A stretch of DNA of 25,532 nt, from the IMG/VR virus record IMGVR_UViG_3300034406_000076, positions 1 through 25,532 of that record. The stretch is one strand, 5' to 3'. The notes under the pieces were generated by a model. The model was not told where the DNA came from and ran no database searches. It saw only the letters and a program-made list of their open reading frames with translations. Position numbers and translations under genes: made by a program. The stretch is from a virus. Shown here piece after piece: positions 7,875 to 24,861 of the stretch; position 1 is the first letter of the stretch, and the number at the start of each line of letters is the position of its first letter.

Positions 7875-8843
7875 ATGCAGAAAGTTCCTTTGCCAAAATT
7901 CCATGAGTCACTGCTTAACGAGGAATGGTACAAGACTGAGTTTGAGCAGAAAGTCAAAGAGGCAGAGTCTCGGAGAAACCCGTTCATAAGGCAGTATTTG
8001 AAGGCTGGCATGAAAGAGGGAATCCTCAGCGACATGGCCGGAGCTCTCGGAAAAATGCACGACGTCGTAGTTGAAGCGGCAAAACCAAACTTGATAGCAA
8101 GAGACATCATAGACGTGAGGACAACAACGGAAGCCTTAGAGCGTTTTCCAAGAGCCAAGAAAAGCGTTGCCTATGTCGGCAGCGAAGGCGGAACCATACG
8201 TATCCATGGGGAACGCTACGACTGGGTCGACATAACCGTGAACGTTATCCTGAAAGATGGAGTTGAATGGACCAGAGAGTTTGCTGAAGACGCCAAATGG
8301 AACGTTATGAACCGTCAGCTCGAAGAGCTCGGACGCTCAATAGCACAACTTGAAACCGACAAAATCATAGGCTTGTATGCTGCAATCTCTGCGAGTGACC
8401 TGGCTACAGGTGCGGAACTTGCAGGCGGCGGAACTGCCATGAGTTGGAGCAAGGCTGTAAGTCTTTGGGATGCTGTCGAGTCGGAGGACTTCCACCCTGA
8501 GACCTTGGTTTTGCATCCGAAGCAGGCGAGCCAACTGTTTACGGCTACGGAATTCATTAACTCTCAATATTTGCCGAGCGCCCAGACAGAGCTTGCAAGA
8601 GGTCTTATCGGTCAAGCCTTAACAATGAAGATCTTCAAGAGCAGTCGCTGCACCAATGGTATTGCTCATGCCATCGAGAAGGCTATTGCTGGAGTCATGT
8701 TGATTCGAAGGGACATCACAACTGAGCCGTATGAAGACCCGAAAAACGGTGTCTTTGGCATAGTAGCAAGTGAGCGCATAGGCTATGGCATCCTGCGCAG
8801 CAAGTCAGTAGCCCGCATGACAAATATCAAAACAACTCTTTAG
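7875..8843 (+). CDS. Major capsid protein, HK97 fold
   Basis: AAGGTGA sits 7 nt before ATG 7875. The product is 322 residues, a usual size for an HK97-fold MCP. The N-terminal helical arm is charged (about residues 1-60) and may be cut by the upstream protease. An extended beta segment follows (VAYVGSEGGTIRIHGERYDWVDITVNVILKDGVEWTREF, an E-loop/P-domain type stretch). A long spine helix rich in Glu and Gln comes next (DAKWNVMNRQLEELGRSIAQLETDKI). The A-domain region includes HPETLVLHPKQASQLF and the closing GVFGIVASERIGYGILRSKSVARM. A T-rich terminator-like tract follows. Gene order strongly supports the call. Confidence 0.85.
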   Translation: MQKVPLPKFHESLLNEEWYKTEFEQKVKEAESRRNPFIRQYLKAGMKEGILSDMAGALGKMHDVVVEAAKPNLIARDIIDVRTTTEALERFPRAKKSVAYVGSEGGTIRIHGERYDWVDITVNVILKDGVEWTREFAEDAKWNVMNRQLEELGRSIAQLETDKIIGLYAAISASDLATGAELAGGGTAMSWSKAVSLWDAVESEDFHPETLVLHPKQASQLFTATEFINSQYLPSAQTELARGLIGQALTMKIFKSSRCTNGIAHAIEKAIAGVMLIRRDITTEPYEDPKNGVFGIVASERIGYGILRSKSVARMTNIKTTL

Positions 8844-9740: not shown

Positions 9741-10691
9741 TTGGAAACCTATGACAAAGAAAGCATAAACCTCGCGCTTTCAATGCGCACTCTTCTGGGC
9801 AATCAAAAAGAACTCAGTAGAAGCGACGTTATAATATTCCATTGTCCACTGGACCTCAAACTTCTCGACATAATCGATAAGCCTTCCATCTACTATAACC
9901 ACCGTTCAGGAAGGCCTACAACTTTCATGTTCAGTGAAATAATGAAACATGTTGAACCAATCAGAAGGGAAGTTTTGAGGAAAGACAGAGATTGGGTGAA
10001 CAAAAAGCTGGAAGGGCTACTCAGAAAACCAGATGTGATTCTCAGCAACTCGAAGTTCACAAAGAAAATGCTCAAGAAATACTTCGGAGTCAACTCTTTC
10101 GTTGTCTATCCACCAGTTGACTTACAACATTTCAATCCAACAACCACACATCCAAAACGAGAGTATTTCCTCTCAGTGCAAAGGGTCAACTGGCAGAAAA
10201 GAATACTTGTCCAGATCGAAGCCTTCAAAGGATTGAATGAAAAGCTCAAAATCGCTGGTGGAATAGGAGATCAACGCCCAAACGCAGATCTGTTAAGGCT
10301 TGCTGAACATTGCGACAACATTGAAATTTTGGGTGACATTGAAGAAGGTGAGCTTCCAGAGTTGTATACGCATGCTAAGGCTACTATTCAAACGGGATAC
10401 TACGAGGATTTTGGCTTAGTCCCCATTGAAAGCATGGCTTGTGGAACACCGATAATAGTTGTGAATGAAGGCGGGTTCATAGACACTGTGCACAGCCCCA
10501 AGCTTGGAATCAGAATACGAAAACCATACGTCGAGAACCTGAGAAAAGCAGCCGAAAACTTTGATTGCAACAATTATGATCCGCGGATTTTGAGGAAAGA
10601 AGCCGAGAAATACGGTTTTGAACGCTTCCAGAACCAGATGGAGAAGTATGTGAAACTGGCGGTGGAAAGACATGGCTTACGAAGACGCTGA
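9741..10691 (+). CDS. GT4-family glycosyltransferase, main part
   Basis: TTG 9741 with GGTGAG (9726-9731) 9 nt upstream gives 316 residues. The C-terminal GT-B donor-binding domain is clear: FLSVQRVNWQKR (about 144-154, with the phosphate-binding Lys), LKIAGGIGD, IEILGDIEEGELPELYTHA. The GT4 signature E222-DFGLVPIE230 with SMACGTPIIVVNEGGF completes it. These enzymes transfer a sugar from a nucleotide or lipid-phosphate donor with retention. The N-terminal domain lacks its first beta-alpha unit, which is encoded by 9545-9730. The product may glycosylate virion or host surface proteins; the sugar cannot be told from sequence. The next gene overlaps by 20 bp. Confidence 0.82.
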   Translation: METYDKESINLALSMRTLLGNQKELSRSDVIIFHCPLDLKLLDIIDKPSIYYNHRSGRPTTFMFSEIMKHVEPIRREVLRKDRDWVNKKLEGLLRKPDVILSNSKFTKKMLKKYFGVNSFVVYPPVDLQHFNPTTTHPKREYFLSVQRVNWQKRILVQIEAFKGLNEKLKIAGGIGDQRPNADLLRLAEHCDNIEILGDIEEGELPELYTHAKATIQTGYYEDFGLVPIESMACGTPIIVVNEGGFIDTVHSPKLGIRIRKPYVENLRKAAENFDCNNYDPRILRKEAEKYGFERFQNQMEKYVKLAVERHGLRRR

Positions 10692-11190
10692 AACTGGATA
10701 CAAGATTCGAGAAATCAACTTCAACGACAGGCGTGAGGTAGAATTATACATTGAAGCCTCTAACGTAGCCCAGCAAGAAATCGTGAGGGGTGGAGGCAAG
10801 GCTTGTAGATATCCCCTGTTGTTGGCAGCCTTCTCTGTTGGACAAGCCATGCGTTTTCAACACCTAAAACGTCCAAAAACCAAATTCTACATAATTCTTG
10901 ACAAGGAAGATAACCCTTTAGCCGTAGGAGAATGCTTCCCAGCTGTGGAAGACTCCCCGTTTAATGGAAAGGAACTCTACCCAATCTTCCACTTATTCCA
11001 GTTCAAGGCTCCCTTCACTAAAGAACTGGCAGAAGCGTACGAAGCCTTTTCGCGCATGCTTAAGCAGCAAGGACACAGCGAAATCTACTGTCACATTCCA
11101 CAAAACCATAGGATGTTGAACTGGCTTCCCGTGAAAAAGAAGATCGGCAAGTTCCTAACCCTTTGGGACCTTTTGGAGCTGAACATCTAA
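10672..11190 (+). CDS. GNAT-like hypothetical protein
   Basis: ATG 10672 overlaps the glycosyltransferase end; the product is 172 residues. The order of elements recalls GNAT acyltransferases: an N-terminal IREINFNDRREVELYIEA, a central strand pair with KFYIILDKEDNPLAVGECFPAV, a long helix (KELAEAYEAFSRMLKQQG), then EIYCHIPQNHRMLNW. The canonical acetyl-CoA loop (Q/RxxGxG/A) is absent or degenerate, so activity is uncertain. It overlaps the next gene by one base (TAATG). It may act with the glycosyltransferase on a sugar or surface protein; this is inference. Confidence 0.55.
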   Translation: MAYEDAETGYKIREINFNDRREVELYIEASNVAQQEIVRGGGKACRYPLLLAAFSVGQAMRFQHLKRPKTKFYIILDKEDNPLAVGECFPAVEDSPFNGKELYPIFHLFQFKAPFTKELAEAYEAFSRMLKQQGHSEIYCHIPQNHRMLNWLPVKKKIGKFLTLWDLLELNI

Positions 11191-11507: not shown

Positions 11508-11816
11508 TTGACTGTAAAAGTTGGGTGGGCTTGTGGCGTCTGCTCTCGCTGTGGAAAAACGATTTGCCGCAGAAGACCAGCTGATTTGGCTGTCTGTGAC
11601 TGTTGGGAATACTGCCCAGCAGATCATGGAAAAGGTCCCTACGGAACAAAGATGGAGCTTTACACGCCTGACTTAACTCCCAATACGTATGGACCCATCG
11701 AAGTTGAAAGCGGCACAGCCTGGGGAGACCTCGAACATCCAATGCAAATCATACACCGATGCCCAATATGCAACTATCACTCAGCAGCCAAGCCACAGGA
11801 AGTAAGATTATCATGA
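11508..11816 (+). CDS. Zinc-cluster protein
   Basis: TTG 11508 immediately follows the previous stop. The 102-residue product carries many metal ligands. The N-terminal half has CGVCSRCGKTIC followed by CDCWEYCPADH, and the C-terminal end has CPICNYH. Together they offer eight or more Cys plus His, enough for two or three zinc sites. No catalytic motif is evident. It lies between the glycosyltransferase group and a winged-helix gene, and its stop overlaps the next start (ATGA). Such proteins often mediate DNA, RNA or protein contacts; a specific role cannot be assigned. Confidence 0.6.
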   Translation: MTVKVGWACGVCSRCGKTICRRRPADLAVCDCWEYCPADHGKGPYGTKMELYTPDLTPNTYGPIEVESGTAWGDLEHPMQIIHRCPICNYHSAAKPQEVRLS

Positions 11817-12055
11817 AGGACCCTGAAAGAGACCAACTCCGCAAAACCATTCTACAATTCATCAAAAAAGGCTACGTACACTACACCGACATTGAGAAGA
11901 AAACCGTGGCCACATGCCTAAGCTTCGCAACCTCAAACACATTCAGGAAACAGTTCTATCAATATTTACTGCCAAACGGCTACATAGAACGAGTTAGTAG
12001 AGGAATTTATAAAATCACTCCCAAGGGTGAGAAACTCTTGGATATATTGACTTAA
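11813..12055 (+). CDS. Winged-helix DNA-binding protein
   Basis: ATG 11813 shares ATGA with the preceding stop; an in-frame upstream ATG at 11759 is less likely. The 80-residue protein is a bare winged helix: helix 1 (RDQLRKTILQFIKKG), a Y-V-H-Y-T-D-I step into helix 2, recognition helix (SNTFRKQFYQYLLPNG), and wing YIERVSRGIYKITPKGEKLL. The closing 'G.Y.IT.kGe.lL' is typical of archaeal transcriptional regulators. It is the last + gene before the convergent glycosylase gene. Confidence 0.65.
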   Translation: MKDPERDQLRKTILQFIKKGYVHYTDIEKKTVATCLSFATSNTFRKQFYQYLLPNGYIERVSRGIYKITPKGEKLLDILT

Positions 12056-12091: not shown

Positions 12092-12919
12092 CTAAATCTC
12101 GAGAAGGTAGTGTACGCATGAATCTCTAAAGCTGCATTGAGAACATCTCGGCTGGGCACCGCAAATATTTTTACAGCCATACTCCGCGCTTGTACCACAA
12201 TGTCTCCATATAATCAAATCGACAATTCCGGGATTCTTACCCAAATTGAAATTCTCAATCTTAATCCCGTTGAGGAAATCACTACAAAATGTTACAAGAG
12301 CGTCTTGGAAGATTTTGTATTGTTTACTGTAATCTGTTGAAAAGACATCTGAAGGATTTTGCCTTTTAGTCTTAGCATAAAAATGAAGAATGCCTGTTCG
12401 GAAAAGAAATCTCTTTGAGTGAACGTCTATGGGGACTCTATCAAAAAAGCCGTGTTCTTTCAGAAAGTCATCATCACTTTTGGGTCCCATGACAGTTTTC
12501 TCTCGCGTTCTTAAATTATGAAGTCTCAAAATCCAGTTACATATTCCTCGAGCTACAAGTTCTTTCGATATTTCCTCGATTTTCTTAATTTTCCTTTCTG
12601 ACAAGTATCCTCTCAGGATTCTGATTCCTTCACTGCTATCGGTTAAGAAGTACTGTGGTTCCCACTCAATTCTACCTTTCCGAAATGCTTCTGCTTTTTG
12701 GATTTGACCTATTATTTTATCAGAAGCATCAGCGCCCCTACCTTGCAGACTCATCTGGTTAACAATTTCGCGAAAAGTATCTCTCCTAAAACTTGAATCA
12801 GTAGAACCAGATTCTATCATTCGCTTCTTACCTACACAATTACGTAGATACTTCATGACAATTTGCTCATATTCTGCAATGAGCTTCTTGAATCCGTTTC
12901 TGAAATCCAAGGTGAGCAC
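12092..12919 (-). CDS. Endonuclease III/HhH-GPD-like Fe-S DNA glycosylase
   Basis: A TTG at 12970 would give 292 residues. I prefer GTG 12919 (275 residues) because GGGGGTGA lies 4 nt before it and the TATA-like box predicts a transcript start near 12955. HhH-GPD features: QMSLQG (equivalent of the LSxQ helix, about 55-60), a degenerate hairpin ending in GPK147 with the lysine where lyase-type glycosylases carry the nucleophile, and VPID165VH, matching the catalytic 'vDtHv' aspartate. The C-terminus carries C253-x5-C259-x2-C262-x5-C268, close to the C-x6-C-x2-C-x5-C [4Fe-4S] site. The family removes damaged or mismatched bases. The substrate is unknown. It is divergent from a UDG-like gene. 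Confidence 0.72.
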   Translation of the reverse strand: MLTLDFRNGFKKLIAEYEQIVMKYLRNCVGKKRMIESGSTDSSFRRDTFREIVNQMSLQGRGADASDKIIGQIQKAEAFRKGRIEWEPQYFLTDSSEGIRILRGYLSERKIKKIEEISKELVARGICNWILRLHNLRTREKTVMGPKSDDDFLKEHGFFDRVPIDVHSKRFLFRTGILHFYAKTKRQNPSDVFSTDYSKQYKIFQDALVTFCSDFLNGIKIENFNLGKNPGIVDLIIWRHCGTSAEYGCKNICGAQPRCSQCSFRDSCVHYLLEI

Positions 12920-12970
12920 TTTTTCACCCCCTACGATTGTATAGTTAAAGACATAAATGAGTTTGCGCAA

Positions 12971-13015
12971 GATCTTTTTTTAAACATGCATGAAACGGAA
13001 GGAAGGTAAGTAAGT
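12971..13015. promoter_or_regulatory. Shared promoter region of the divergent glycosylase pair
   Basis: A TTTTTTTAAA tract (about 12974-12983) contains the symmetrical TTTAAA and can serve as a TATA-like box for both directions. Next to it is CATGCATG, a perfect palindrome. GGAAGGTAAG lies shortly before the rightward TTG start at 13016. Confidence 0.4.
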
Positions 13016-13657
13016 TTGTCAAATGAGTTTAAAGTGGAGCTTGACAAACTCGCCCATGAAATAAGATTCGTAAAACCACCTGCGGAGTGTCAGAGTTTAC
13101 CACTTCCTGGATATGTTGGGAAGAGATATTCGAAAAGAGGAATACTCTTTGTCGGAAAGAACCCAGGGCAACCAGGGAAACGTCACCCCGACGGATATTG
13201 GGCTGGTGAGCATCATTATGATAGAAGTATGCGTGTGGATTGTCTAAGAGAACATTATTTTGAAGGATTGAGGCGATGTCCGGTCGGCATCTTTTTGGAA
13301 GAATTACTGCGACGCAACTCTTTGACTATGCTTGATGATATTGCATATACAAATGTAGTGAAATGCGTCACGAAAAATAACATGGATCCCAGTGCGCCCT
13401 TAGTTGAGTTTTGGTTACCCTATTTGAAAAAAGAGTTATACTTGCTCAAACCCAAACTGATTGTGTGTTTGGGCCAATTTGCAGTACGCATATTTAACAG
13501 CCAAGCCTCAAAGTTTAAGACATTTCGTTGCGAGTTGGTTGAAGGCGTTGTGTTATATCTTCCACATCCGAGTATGCGCGGCATAAAACGAACAGAACTG
13601 ATTAAGCGGTCCTCAGAAAGTTTCAGAAATGGGCTAAAAGAAAGTGGTGCCATTTAG
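13016..13657 (+). CDS. Uracil-DNA glycosylase superfamily protein
   Basis: TTG 13016, with GGAAGGT upstream, gives 213 residues. UDG-superfamily motifs are in the right order: motif A as ILFVGKNPGQPG (about 43-54, like the GEAPG loop of family 4 to 6 enzymes); the core strand IAYTNVVKCVTKN (about 109-121); LKPKLIVCLGQFAVRIF (about 144-160); and motif B as LYLPHPSMRG (about 180-189, His-Pro-Ser). The family flips out and excises uracil or related deaminated or modified bases. Asn instead of Glu/Asp in motif A may alter specificity. The Cys pattern does not clearly match the family 4 Fe-S cluster. The divergent partner is another glycosylase. Confidence 0.75.
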   Translation: MSNEFKVELDKLAHEIRFVKPPAECQSLPLPGYVGKRYSKRGILFVGKNPGQPGKRHPDGYWAGEHHYDRSMRVDCLREHYFEGLRRCPVGIFLEELLRRNSLTMLDDIAYTNVVKCVTKNNMDPSAPLVEFWLPYLKKELYLLKPKLIVCLGQFAVRIFNSQASKFKTFRCELVEGVVLYLPHPSMRGIKRTELIKRSSESFRNGLKESGAI

Positions 13658-13771: not shown

Positions 13772-14215
13772 GTGAGGGTAGCGTTGGTTGCAGCTGTTGT
13801 TATCGTTATAGTAGTTAGTTTCTCTGCTGGCGTTTTTGTTGGCGCAGTCATGGAGCGTAGCCGTCGAATCAGCAATCAAGCTGCAATCAAAGCCGTTGGC
13901 GTCCGCGTGTACCAGGATCCCGCGCTAACGGTTCCCTTAACCGAAATCAACTGGGGTTTTCTGGAGCCAGGAGAGGCAAAAAATCGCACAGCGTACATTA
14001 AGAACGAGTCTAACGTTCCGATCACGCTGACTCTAACTACAGAGAATTGGAGTCCATCAAACGCGTCAGACTTTGTGATGCTCACTTGGAACAATGATGG
14101 GCAACCTGTGGGAGCAGACAGGTTCGTTGAGGTCACCTTCACCTTAGCAGTGGATCCGGCGATTTCTGGAATTGATGCGTTCAGCTTTGATATTGTCATC
14201 GTGGGGACCGGATAG
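13772..14215 (+). CDS. Membrane-anchored Ig-like beta-sandwich protein
   Basis: GTG 13772 gives 147 residues. Residues 2-27 are a strong transmembrane or signal-anchor segment (VALVAAVVIVIVVSFSAGVF). A short basic turn follows, then a beta-sandwich of about 110 residues: VRVYQDPALTVPLTEINWG, GEAKNRTAYIKNESNVPITLTL, and RFVEVTFTLAVDPAISG. This resembles archaeal Ig-like or CARDB-type extracellular domains. There are N-glycosylation sequons (NRT, NES, NAS), compatible with an exported archaeal protein. It is directly upstream of the connector gene (zero spacing), so it may be made late and placed on the host surface or virion; this is inference. Confidence 0.6.
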   Translation: MRVALVAAVVIVIVVSFSAGVFVGAVMERSRRISNQAAIKAVGVRVYQDPALTVPLTEINWGFLEPGEAKNRTAYIKNESNVPITLTLTTENWSPSNASDFVMLTWNNDGQPVGADRFVEVTFTLAVDPAISGIDAFSFDIVIVGTG

Positions 14216-22026: not shown

Positions 22027-23410
22027 GTGGTTCAGACTTCAGCAAAGCGAAAGGCTTGTTGATGAAGCTGAGGTGGCCGGGGCTGAAAGGCTGAGTAGAG
22101 AGCCCGTGGAGTTTTTCCGTCAAGTCGTGGGATTCGAACCCACGAGTTATCAGAAGGAGTTCATACGGTTATTCTGTGGACATTCTTTTGTCGCTGGGCG
22201 TTGGTGCCGTCAAAGCGGGAAAAGCTGGATCGTAGCAGCTCTGTTATTGTGGTATGCTGTGACGCATCCTGACAGCGGCATAGCTGTAGTTGGTCCCAGT
22301 TGGAGACAAGCAAAATTCATCATTCGCCGCATCAAGTATTTCCTCCGCAACTTACCGCGTGCAATGTATTTCAAGCCTCTGAAAACCATCATCCGTTTTA
22401 CAAACGGCTCAGTCATTGAAGCTTTTCCCAACAACCCAGACACGATTCGAGGACCTACACTTCATGTTGTTTATGGTGACGAATGGAATTTCATGCCTAA
22501 CGATGAGGAGATGTATGATGCCATTCTTTTCACAATTAGCACGACCAACGGAAAATTTGTGTGCACAAGTACGCCTTGGAATACAGATTCGCTCTTCTAC
22601 AAGTTCGTGCATCATGAAGATTACAATGTGTTTGCCAGGCATCATGTAACCTGGAAGCAGGCCCTTGAGCCTAAAGGACCGTTAAAGAAGAATATTCTGT
22701 CGATGATTCGCAGACAGTTTGCTGAGGATCCTTGGCGTTGGAAGCGTGAGATGGAGGCTGAATGGGCTGAAGACGAGACTACATGGCTGCCTCAGAGCTT
22801 AATCACGAAATGTATTCAGGGAGACCTTGAGCTTTGGAAGTTTGACAGCCATCAGAGCGGCACGTTTTACGGCGGACTTGACCTCGGCAAAATCCGTGAC
22901 TACAGCGTCTTTATTGGTGTGGAGAAGGTTGAAAGCAGATATCTGCTACGCCACTGGAAGGTTTTTCCGCTTAACACAAAGTACGCCACGGTTATAGGTT
23001 ACGTTAAAACCCTCTGCGACCGCTGGGAAAGTTTTGACCGCATCAGAGTTGACATCACAGGTGTAGGTGAATACGTAGTTGAGGACATGCAAAACGCTGG
23101 CATAGAAGCAGAGATAGAAGGGGTTACCTTTACGCTTCCGCGAAAGCAGGAGATGGCCAGCCTTTTGAAACAGCGCATGCTGGATACGGCCTACCGCTTC
23201 CCCTTCTCACAGATGAGGCTTTCACCAACCGTTCTGCTTAGCTATGTCGCAGAACTGAATGTGGAGAGGTTTGAGCTACGGAAAGACGGGTCAATAGCGT
23301 TTAACCATCCCCAGGGTCAACACGATGATACTTTTTGGGCTTCTTCTTTAGCGATTTACTGCAGCGTCAAAATGACCCCGGAACCGACATTGGTTGTGAT
23401 TCCCACATGA
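22001..23410 (+). CDS. Terminase large subunit
   Basis: ATG 22001 is taken as the start (469 residues); ATG 22019 is also possible. The ATPase domain has the N-terminal YQKEFIRLF element, a deviant Walker A GRWCRQSGKS (66-75), Walker B HVVYGDEW (155-162) and coupling motif CTSTPW (188-193). The RNase H-like nuclease has D294 in GGLDLG, D351 in RVDITG and the D442-D443 pair in QGQHDDTFW, which together bind two metals. The protein drives DNA into the head and cuts the concatemer. It overlaps the small subunit gene at its start and the ABC-GNAT gene at its end (ATGA). All key residues are present, so it should be active. Confidence 0.93.
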   Translation: MRPSEIMPKWFRLQQSERLVDEAEVAGAERLSREPVEFFRQVVGFEPTSYQKEFIRLFCGHSFVAGRWCRQSGKSWIVAALLLWYAVTHPDSGIAVVGPSWRQAKFIIRRIKYFLRNLPRAMYFKPLKTIIRFTNGSVIEAFPNNPDTIRGPTLHVVYGDEWNFMPNDEEMYDAILFTISTTNGKFVCTSTPWNTDSLFYKFVHHEDYNVFARHHVTWKQALEPKGPLKKNILSMIRRQFAEDPWRWKREMEAEWAEDETTWLPQSLITKCIQGDLELWKFDSHQSGTFYGGLDLGKIRDYSVFIGVEKVESRYLLRHWKVFPLNTKYATVIGYVKTLCDRWESFDRIRVDITGVGEYVVEDMQNAGIEAEIEGVTFTLPRKQEMASLLKQRMLDTAYRFPFSQMRLSPTVLLSYVAELNVERFELRKDGSIAFNHPQGQHDDTFWASSLAIYCSVKMTPEPTLVVIPT

Positions 23411-24861
23411 CAAGGCGCCGAGAGTTCTTCCGCATCACCAAATACGCTCGCAGATATGACCGTAAAACCGAACGCTTTACCATTAATATAGCATATGAAA
23501 CCGCAACCGAGATCACGCCAAGAACAATCGGAGTGGCTGAAGCCTTCGGCTTAGGAATAGATCAACACAAAAAATTCGTTATCTACAATGATGTCAAGCT
23601 TAACATAGGACCCACAGACATCGTTTATATCACTGGCGACAGCGGCTCAGGCAAAAGCGTTCTGCTACGAGCCATGAAAAACGACCTTGGTTCAGAAGCT
23701 CTCGACATGACGACCATCCAAGTAGACCCAGACAAGCCCTTAGTCGACACTGTTGGCAATAACCTGGGCGAAGGCCTTGAGCTGTTGAGCCGAGCTGGCT
23801 TAAATGACGCTTTTCTCTTCATAAGGCGTTATCGGGAACTCAGTGACGGACAGAAATATCGGTACAAAATAGCCAGGCTTATGGAAAGTGGAAAGCAATG
23901 GTGGCTTGCCGACGAGTTTTGCAGCACATTAGACAGGGACACAGCTAAGATTGTGGCTTTTAACATGCAGAAGCTTGCCAGAAAAAGCGGTAAAGCCGTA
24001 ATAGTTGCAACAACTCACACAGACCTAACTGAGGATCTTAAGCCCAGCGTGCATATCCATAAGCGATTTGGCAGAGAAATCGAGGTTAACTATTATCCTA
24101 ACGACATCAACAAGCAATGTAGCCTCGTAAAAGAAATGCGAATTGAAGAAGGTTCAGTAGCAGATTATAGAAAGCTACGTGTCTTCCACTACCGCACTTC
24201 ACACTGTCCAGCTCCAAGGAAAATCTTTGTTTTAAAGCGTGAAGATGAGCTTTGTGGAGTTATCGTCTACAGCTGGTCTCCTCCAAACACTTTTGGCAGA
24301 AGGAAAGTTTGGAAGGGAAGCTTTCAGCAGATGCAGAAAGAGTTGAGCACTATTACACGAGTTGTTGTGCATCCTAAATACCGTACCATAGGCTTGGGTA
24401 TTAAGCTCGTTAAAGAAACCTTGCCTTTGGCTCCAACACCATGCATTGAAACCATTGCGGTTATGGCACGCTACAACCCTTTCTTTGAGAGAGCAGGCAT
24501 GCAAAAAATTATGGAAAGTAAGCCTAACCCAAACATACTCGTAGCCATAGAACAGCTGCGAAAATTAGGCTTCAACCCAGTGTTGCTTGGCTCTGTAAAC
24601 TACAATGCACAAAAAATCAAAGAAGCTGAAAGAGAAAAAGTCGAAGAGATCTTAATTCAATTTTGTAAGAAAGAAGGAGCCTTACGAAAGAGGTTGTTAA
24701 GTTTTCACCGAGTATATCCCAAACAAGCTCAGGCAGTAGCCAAAATCAAAGCTGCCTCAATTGACATTCTTGCAAGAACCATTAGGCGCCTGAACTTTCT
24801 GGCTCAAACAAAAGTCTACTTATTCTGGAGTTCTCTCAAAACCAACACTTTAGCACGATAG
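23407..24861 (+). CDS. ABC-type ATPase fused to GNAT acetyltransferase domain
   Basis: ATG 23407 shares ATGA with the terminase stop; 484 residues. Residues ~50-220 are an ABC ATPase: Walker A GDSGSGKS (77-84), signature LSDGQ (145-149), Walker B WWLADE (165-170) with the catalytic Glu, D-loop after CSTLD, and switch His204 in ATTHTD. No transmembrane segment is present, so it is not a transporter. Residues ~245-375 are a GNAT domain with RVVVHPKYRTIGLG (318-331, acetyl-CoA loop) and a NPFFERAGM close. The C-terminal ~110 residues are helical and basic. Substrates of either domain are unknown. Placement right after terL suggests a late or DNA-linked function. Confidence 0.85.
   Translation: MTRRREFFRITKYARRYDRKTERFTINIAYETATEITPRTIGVAEAFGLGIDQHKKFVIYNDVKLNIGPTDIVYITGDSGSGKSVLLRAMKNDLGSEALDMTTIQVDPDKPLVDTVGNNLGEGLELLSRAGLNDAFLFIRRYRELSDGQKYRYKIARLMESGKQWWLADEFCSTLDRDTAKIVAFNMQKLARKSGKAVIVATTHTDLTEDLKPSVHIHKRFGREIEVNYYPNDINKQCSLVKEMRIEEGSVADYRKLRVFHYRTSHCPAPRKIFVLKREDELCGVIVYSWSPPNTFGRRKVWKGSFQQMQKELSTITRVVVHPKYRTIGLGIKLVKETLPLAPTPCIETIAVMARYNPFFERAGMQKIMESKPNPNILVAIEQLRKLGFNPVLLGSVNYNAQKIKEAEREKVEEILIQFCKKEGALRKRLLSFHRVYPKQAQAVAKIKAASIDILARTIRRLNFLAQTKVYLFWSSLKTNTLAR

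Follow-up and report, generated by a model that had tools for sequence, protein, structure and literature searches.

Two divergently oriented genes in the linear virus record IMGVR_UViG_3300034406_000076 (positions 1 to 25,532, the whole of which was analysed and is called the window here) encode a putative OGG2-like HhH-GPD glycosylase/AP-lyase with a C-terminal four-cysteine module and an atypical protein of the UDG superfamily, both predicted to remove damaged or unusual bases from DNA. We read the pair as a catalytically competent accessory base-excision module of a Bathyarchaeia head-tailed (pro)virus, a reading to which we give a probability of about 45%; taken alone, the assignment of the two proteins to these two enzyme classes is very probable. 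The pair is real and unusual, and a sequence-only reading of the window had rightly recognised a viral locus with base-excision enzymes from two superfamilies. The best-founded novelty, rather than the pairing, is the Fe-S-type branch of OGG2-like enzymes to which the HhH protein appears to belong.

Relatives of the terminase gene in GTDB genomes come almost exclusively from Bathyarchaeia, which identifies this class as the host group, and some of them are embedded in long chromosomal contigs and are thus probable proviruses. The virus falls within a large group of Bathyarchaeia head–tail (pro)viruses. The terminase-defined group (L003–L132) comprises head–tail viruses and probable proviruses, drawn from IMG/VR and GTDB, that share a conserved tail module, and has more distant relatives in Terraquivivens and Hecatellales. 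Both glycosylase-like genes are located between the major capsid gene (7875–8843) and the tail/terminase block, that is, amid virion gene blocks as first described. The window carries other genes of interest. A protein in which an ABC-type ATPase is fused to a GNAT acetyltransferase domain (23335–24861) is encoded immediately downstream of the terminase gene; of 80 related viral loci, 74 contain a match to it. A further accessory block after the capsid gene (9741–11190) contains a GT4-type glycosyltransferase and a neighbour without a Pfam match; a glycosyltransferase 70% identical to the former, with the same neighbours, is found in L201.

The HhH-GPD gene occupies 12092–12919 on the minus strand (GTG start, 275 amino acids). 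The longest open reading frame extends to a TTG start at 12970 (12092–12970, 292 amino acids), and the initial methionine of the relatives aligns to the GTG at 12919, not to this TTG. Residues are numbered here from the 292-residue frame, so that Lys164 and Asp182 are Lys147 and Asp165 when counted from the GTG; because the relatives align from 12919, the latter numbers, used in the sequence-only reading, are confirmed. Searched as a single sequence, the protein yielded nothing meaningful in Pfam, NCBIfam, PHROGs, PADLOC or the PDB. Weak PDB matches to ribosomal protein S13 covered only a short helical stretch and were set aside. Relatives are sparse in Bathyarchaeia: matches at E ≤ 0.001 were obtained in 8 of 257 genomes, including a short match of the ribosomal-S13-like stretch and four full-length proteins (L138, L133, L139 and L140). 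When these four were aligned with the window protein, Lys164 (codon 12479–12481, minus strand; hairpin motif MGPK) and Asp182 (codon 12425–12427, minus strand; motif PIDVH) were invariant, lay 18 residues apart with the spacing of HhH-GPD enzymes and aligned with the catalytic Lys of OGG2 and the Asp of its IIDRH motif, respectively. Also invariant in the five rows were His184, Arg187, Phe188, Arg191-Thr-Gly-Ile194 and five cysteines (Cys258, Cys270, Cys276, Cys279 and Cys285), so the candidate catalytic and cysteine residues proposed earlier are kept among homologues. The HhH assignment therefore has no single-sequence support and gains it from the invariant residues and the OGG2 profile match once five sequences are aligned; the proposal of a divergent glycosylase pair holds directly for the UDG member and only by this route for its neighbour. 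An AlphaFold2 model built with the five rows was poor (pLDDT 48), and its best VIA matches were HhH glycosylases (2h56, Z 5.8, 4.4 Å over 91 residues; 3knt, Z 5.1, 5.2 Å over 150 residues). A chance reading frame, a frameshift and a pseudogene were rejected for both genes, as the frames are open and the residues conserved; both genes are real.

Further relatives of the HhH protein were sought in several ways. An exact-peptide scan found none in IMG/VR or GTDB contigs, the first five-row alignment likewise retrieved nothing from IMG/VR, 2.9 million viral contigs contained no match to a degenerate DNA signature for P(I/V)DxHxxRFxxRTGI, and tblastn gave no match in GenBank phages or PLSDB plasmids. 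A looser pattern retrieved EndoIII-type proteins that are not relatives; separately, one viral contig (L085, 1–2227) has an EndoIII-type HhH domain in frame with sequence resembling a C5-cytosine methyltransferase. A search of the host phylum added two family members, L185 and L186, together with true OGG2 proteins.

The sequence-only reading had called the protein EndoIII/HhH-GPD-like. Its HhH-GPD part stands, and the profile replaces EndoIII with OGG2: the five-row profile matched 3fhg at 8.9e-7, 3fhf at 0.086 and 3n0u at 0.24 in the PDB, and reached EndoIII only at an E value of about 2, over the cysteine stretch. NCBIfam NF002305 matched one family member (1.4e-7, below the cut-off of that model) and the Pfam Ogg-HhH match was weak. 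In a joint alignment with four true OGG2 sequences, the OGG2 chain stops shortly after PGILDxxIW, in a C-terminal lysine; the window protein extends beyond the IW block to a terminal LLEI, none of the family members ends in lysine, and each of the seven has its 8-oxoG sensor lysine replaced. In OGG2, this lysine is strictly conserved and distinguishes 8-oxoG from G, and its truncation abolishes 8-oxoG cleavage while sparing AP-lyase activity (PMC3397491).

The extension past the OGG2 core carries the module C270-x5-C276-x2-C279-x5-C285 (12116–12163, minus strand), a putative [4Fe-4S] loop whose four cysteines are invariant in the five sequences; such a module is present in 7/7 full-length members and absent from the four true OGG2 proteins. 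Across the seven members the pattern is C-x5-C-x(2, 4 or 6)-C followed by a fourth cysteine, with x5-x2-x5 spacing in the window protein, L138, L140 and L186 and x5-x6-x5 in L133 and L139. The C-terminal four-cysteine set noted earlier is thus conserved, and the EndoIII spacing (C-x6-C-x2-C-x5-C) is not what it has, the first interval being x5. In a 14-row tree, a branch supported at 93/91 sets the seven members apart, the OGG2 branch has support of 99/98 and the window protein pairs with L138 at 100/100; the family branches apart from both the EndoIII and the OGG2 rows, and Nth/MutY proteins are not its closest relatives. Overall, the protein stands nearer to OGG2 than EndoIII does—probably an OGG2-like enzyme with an Fe-S-type tail—and its family would be a small, apparently undescribed glycosylase branch with an added iron–sulphur-type tail.

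The UDG-superfamily gene (13016–13657, plus strand; TTG start, 213 amino acids) was identified directly: the protein matches PF03167 at E = 4.5e-14 (53.2 bits; the Pfam gathering score is 24.3), which by sequence places its superfamily assignment far beyond chance, and among PDB sequences it matches the family-4 enzyme 4ZBX best (2.5e-9). An AlphaFold2 model guided by 24 family-4 sequences from the host phylum (pLDDT 74) was compared with known structures by Foldseek and VIA-align. The predicted fold is nearest to family-4 UDGs (Z of about 15; 1vk2, Z 15.4, 3.1 Å over 173 residues; 4zbx, Z 14.6, 3.1 Å over 166), followed by UdgX (6ajs, Z 14.5, 3.1 Å over 167), SMUG1 (5h98, Z 10.8, 3.6 Å over 167) and TDG (3uo7, Z 9.6, 3.2 Å over 149), a ranking biased towards family 4 because the guiding alignment consisted of family-4 sequences. 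The motifs are not those of family 4. GKNPG (motif A, residues 47–51; 13154–13168, plus strand) aligns with the family-4 GEAPG and HPS (motif B, residues 184–186; 13565–13573, plus strand) with HPAA; both were recognized in the sequence-only reading, and at these positions they agree with the GxNPG and HPS of SMUG1 (family 3). The same reading had taken the asparagine of motif A as a hint of a target other than uracil, which does not follow: GxNPG is the ordinary motif A of TDG/MUG and SMUG1, enzymes that excise uracil, so Asn49 is no argument against uracil, and motif B of SMUG1 is also HPS. The TNVVKC block (residues 112–117; 13349–13366, plus strand) was located by alignment to 4zbx, which places Asn113 at Asn82 of Sulfolobus tokodaii UDG.

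Three of the four family-4 Fe-S cysteines are missing from the UDG protein. C117 is kept, the N terminus has a single cysteine (C25) and no CxxC, and the fourth cysteine is replaced by tryptophan. An insertion of about 28 residues relative to family 4, most of it formed by residues 52–80 (13169–13255, plus strand), follows motif A in the loop region that bears the base-stacking aromatic residue in family 4; residues 51–80 are the only stretch of the model with pLDDT below 50. In S. tokodaii UDG, the base-stacking phenylalanine is F55, and N82 contacts uracil (PMC11078745). The window protein is therefore atypical in having GKNPG and HPS motifs on a family-4-like core, with the Fe-S cysteines mostly lost and a loop inserted. 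Neither tblastn against GenBank phages nor an exact-peptide scan of IMG/VR found relatives of it, no UDG relative was present among the stretches examined of the 101 that carry an FVGKNPG signature, and in the host class and phylum every match obtained was family-4-like and covered residues ~90–170.

The closeness of UdgX to family 4 in fold score (6ajs, Z 14.5) would suit non-enzymatic or suicidal binders, one example being a UdgX-like protein that caps uracil sites or cross-links them, or else a degraded glycosylase. A KRRIH loop is characteristic of UdgX, which also has an Fe-S cluster. With intact catalytic residues in both window proteins, and a UDG member that has lost three of the four family-4-type cluster cysteines, we consider this explanation very improbable. 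From their sequences, both enzymes look catalytically competent.

The standard catalytic residues kept in both proteins would fit a plain base-excision repair of the virus's own DNA, in which the UDG would clear deaminated cytosine and the HhH enzyme oxidised bases, with a gain in fidelity or stability. Deaminated cytosine stalls archaeal family-B polymerases, and UDG-like proteins occur in other tailed phages, as BFVD matches show. Against routine repair, a UDG-superfamily match is present in 153 of the 257 host-class genomes (those examined were family 4), so that most hosts already carry such an enzyme; the 8-oxoG sensor lysine is gone from every member of the HhH family; and neither gene was found in 50 related viral records. 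We regard this repair explanation as possible, and as somewhat less probable than the accessory module preferred here.

The two genes sit in a site whose content varies. It is bounded upstream by a conserved winged-helix-like gene (11759–12055, plus strand; Pfam winged-helix models score below their cut-offs) with relatives in L011, L202 and L203, and downstream by a conserved virion-block gene (13772–14215, plus strand) whose position varies among relatives. Among related viruses, the stretch between the 11759 and 14216 genes differs: it is nearly empty in L011 (6624 to 6739), holds an HD-CE protein in L202 (5635–7389; PF24391, 7.5e-25) and in L203 contains a small gene, next to the 11759 gene, for a membrane-protein-like product; in L201, where no 11759 gene was recognised, the corresponding stretch contains an M23 peptidase gene. 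A weaker HD-CE match is also found just downstream of an HhH relative in L205 (9788–10303). The G+C content of the HhH gene (38.6%) places it among the lowest 1.5% for stretches of its size in the window; that of the UDG gene is 42.2%, and the capsid, portal and terminase genes have 47–49%. The low G+C content of the HhH gene together with the variable site fits acquisition as cargo; the pair is carried by the tailed virus as accessory cargo.

Elsewhere, some HhH relatives have neighbours reminiscent of genetic conflict, namely an HNH nuclease gene (L178), type II/IIG methyltransferases with HerA (L177) and VapC-like toxin genes (L206); these restriction–modification, HNH and VapC associations have no background control and are anecdotal. 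Beside the closest relative (L138), 997–1797 of L175, a contig of 3.3 kb, has a weak DUF7255 match and looks like a nuclease of restriction type with a reader domain at its N terminus.

Measured from the GTG at 12919, from which the relatives align, the divergent intergenic region is 96 bp long (12920–13015), in agreement with the ~100 bp first estimated. It contains TTTAAA at 12979–12984 and, on the minus strand, an AT-rich box near 12937–12950. A shared promoter region with a symmetrical TTTAAA box had been suggested; the box gives no evidence of a single shared promoter, because the hexamer occurs 10 times in the 25.5-kb window and is palindromic anyway. The UDG start follows the box at 12979 by about 33 nt, and the HhH start lies about 24 nt beyond the AT-rich box near 12943; from these positions we infer that two candidate archaeal promoters of ordinary type are as likely as a single shared one. 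A bacterial-type promoter scan of the region was uninformative, and neither repeats nor terminators exceeded chance in scans of the cargo region.

Conserved adjacency of the two families, which the sequence-only reading had put forward as a check, fails: no UDG was found in the DNA around HhH relatives by tblastn and profile search, and no UDG domain (PF03167) was present in 50 related viral records. The HhH protein likewise had no match in 50 related records, a weaker negative, since no positive control accompanied it. As the pair turned up a single time, functional coupling has no support from co-occurrence. This absence of a UDG near any HhH relative, the different G+C contents (38.6% and 42.2%) and the divergent orientation would all be expected of two unrelated cargo genes that are neighbours by chance, each with its own promoter and function and no common pathway. 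Chance is nevertheless a rather improbable account, given the complementary chemistry of a maker of AP sites and an AP lyase, and given that the genes are only 96 bp apart in an otherwise small or variable site.

For the accessory base-excision module that we prefer, the conserved residues suggest the following chemistry. The UDG-superfamily enzyme would most likely hydrolyse the glycosidic bond of a flipped-out base and leave an abasic site; the HhH enzyme, with Lys164 as nucleophile and Asp182, would most likely excise its own target base and nick abasic sites by β-elimination. The two could thus act in sequence, one producing the sites that the other nicks. Three observations point to a substrate that is non-canonical rather than routine: the sensor lysine of OGG2 is lost, the pocket of the UDG is remodelled, and most host genomes carry ordinary UDGs. 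Redundancy with host repair is in itself a mild argument for another substrate. Tentatively, a use against another element, or on DNA that is foreign or modified, ranks slightly above protection of viral DNA, which is also possible. Conflict and repair stand close together because the neighbours of the HhH relatives have no background rate and because VapBC genes are common in archaea. A virus-borne two-enzyme weapon against the DNA of competing elements or of the host is unlikely; it would have the remodelled UDG remove a modified base and the Fe-S-bearing, OGG2-derived lyase excise a second base or nick the resulting abasic sites. Were it true, the Fe-S OGG2 branch would represent a class of conflict glycosylases that is new, with a cluster module in place of the 8-oxoG sensor.

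The HhH branch, in which an OGG2 core no longer has the residue for telling 8-oxoguanine and guanine apart and has acquired an EndoIII-like four-cysteine module, offers a direct test of what an Fe-S loop and a sensor lysine each give to base selection. The mixed-motif UDG beside it makes the locus a testable case of viral base excision in an archaeal and uncultured host class.

Among known systems, Brig1 belongs to the UDG superfamily; S. tokodaii family-4 UDG matches it best in structure, and its pocket is predicted to be enlarged (PMC11078745). The window UDG is alike in its best structural match, a likeness of description. In the parts available of the two reports, Brig1 and Brig3 are bacterial defence genes with other pocket residues (Y121/E147 in Brig1; E55/W100/N127 in Brig3) and are described with no mention of an HhH partner (PMC11078745, PMC13160076). 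A Brig-type attack on modified DNA by the window pair is possible, and PADLOC gave no match to either protein. Family-4 UDGs (S. tokodaii 4ZBX and Thermotoga maritima 1VK2) share the fold and the TNVVKC block with the window UDG, and differ in having GEAPG and HPAA motifs, four Fe-S cysteines and no ~28-residue insertion. SMUG1 and TDG/MUG (families 3 and 2) share the GxNPG motif A, whereas their structural scores against the family-4-guided model are lower, no sequence match to them was found and the core of the window protein is family-4-like. For the HhH protein, OGG2 (SsoOGG, 3FHG; MjaOGG, 3FHF/3KNT; NF002305) is the closest profile match, with the HhH core, Lys-x17-Asp and the (P/I)(I/V)DxH and PGI(L/V)DxxIW blocks in common. 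EndoIII and MutY are alike in the 18-residue Lys–Asp distance and in four C-terminal cysteines ending in C-x2-C-x5-C; unlike them, the window protein has a first cysteine spacing of x5 instead of x6 and an OGG2-type core. Compared residue by residue, it thus appears to resemble both OGG2 and EndoIII while departing from a defining feature of each.
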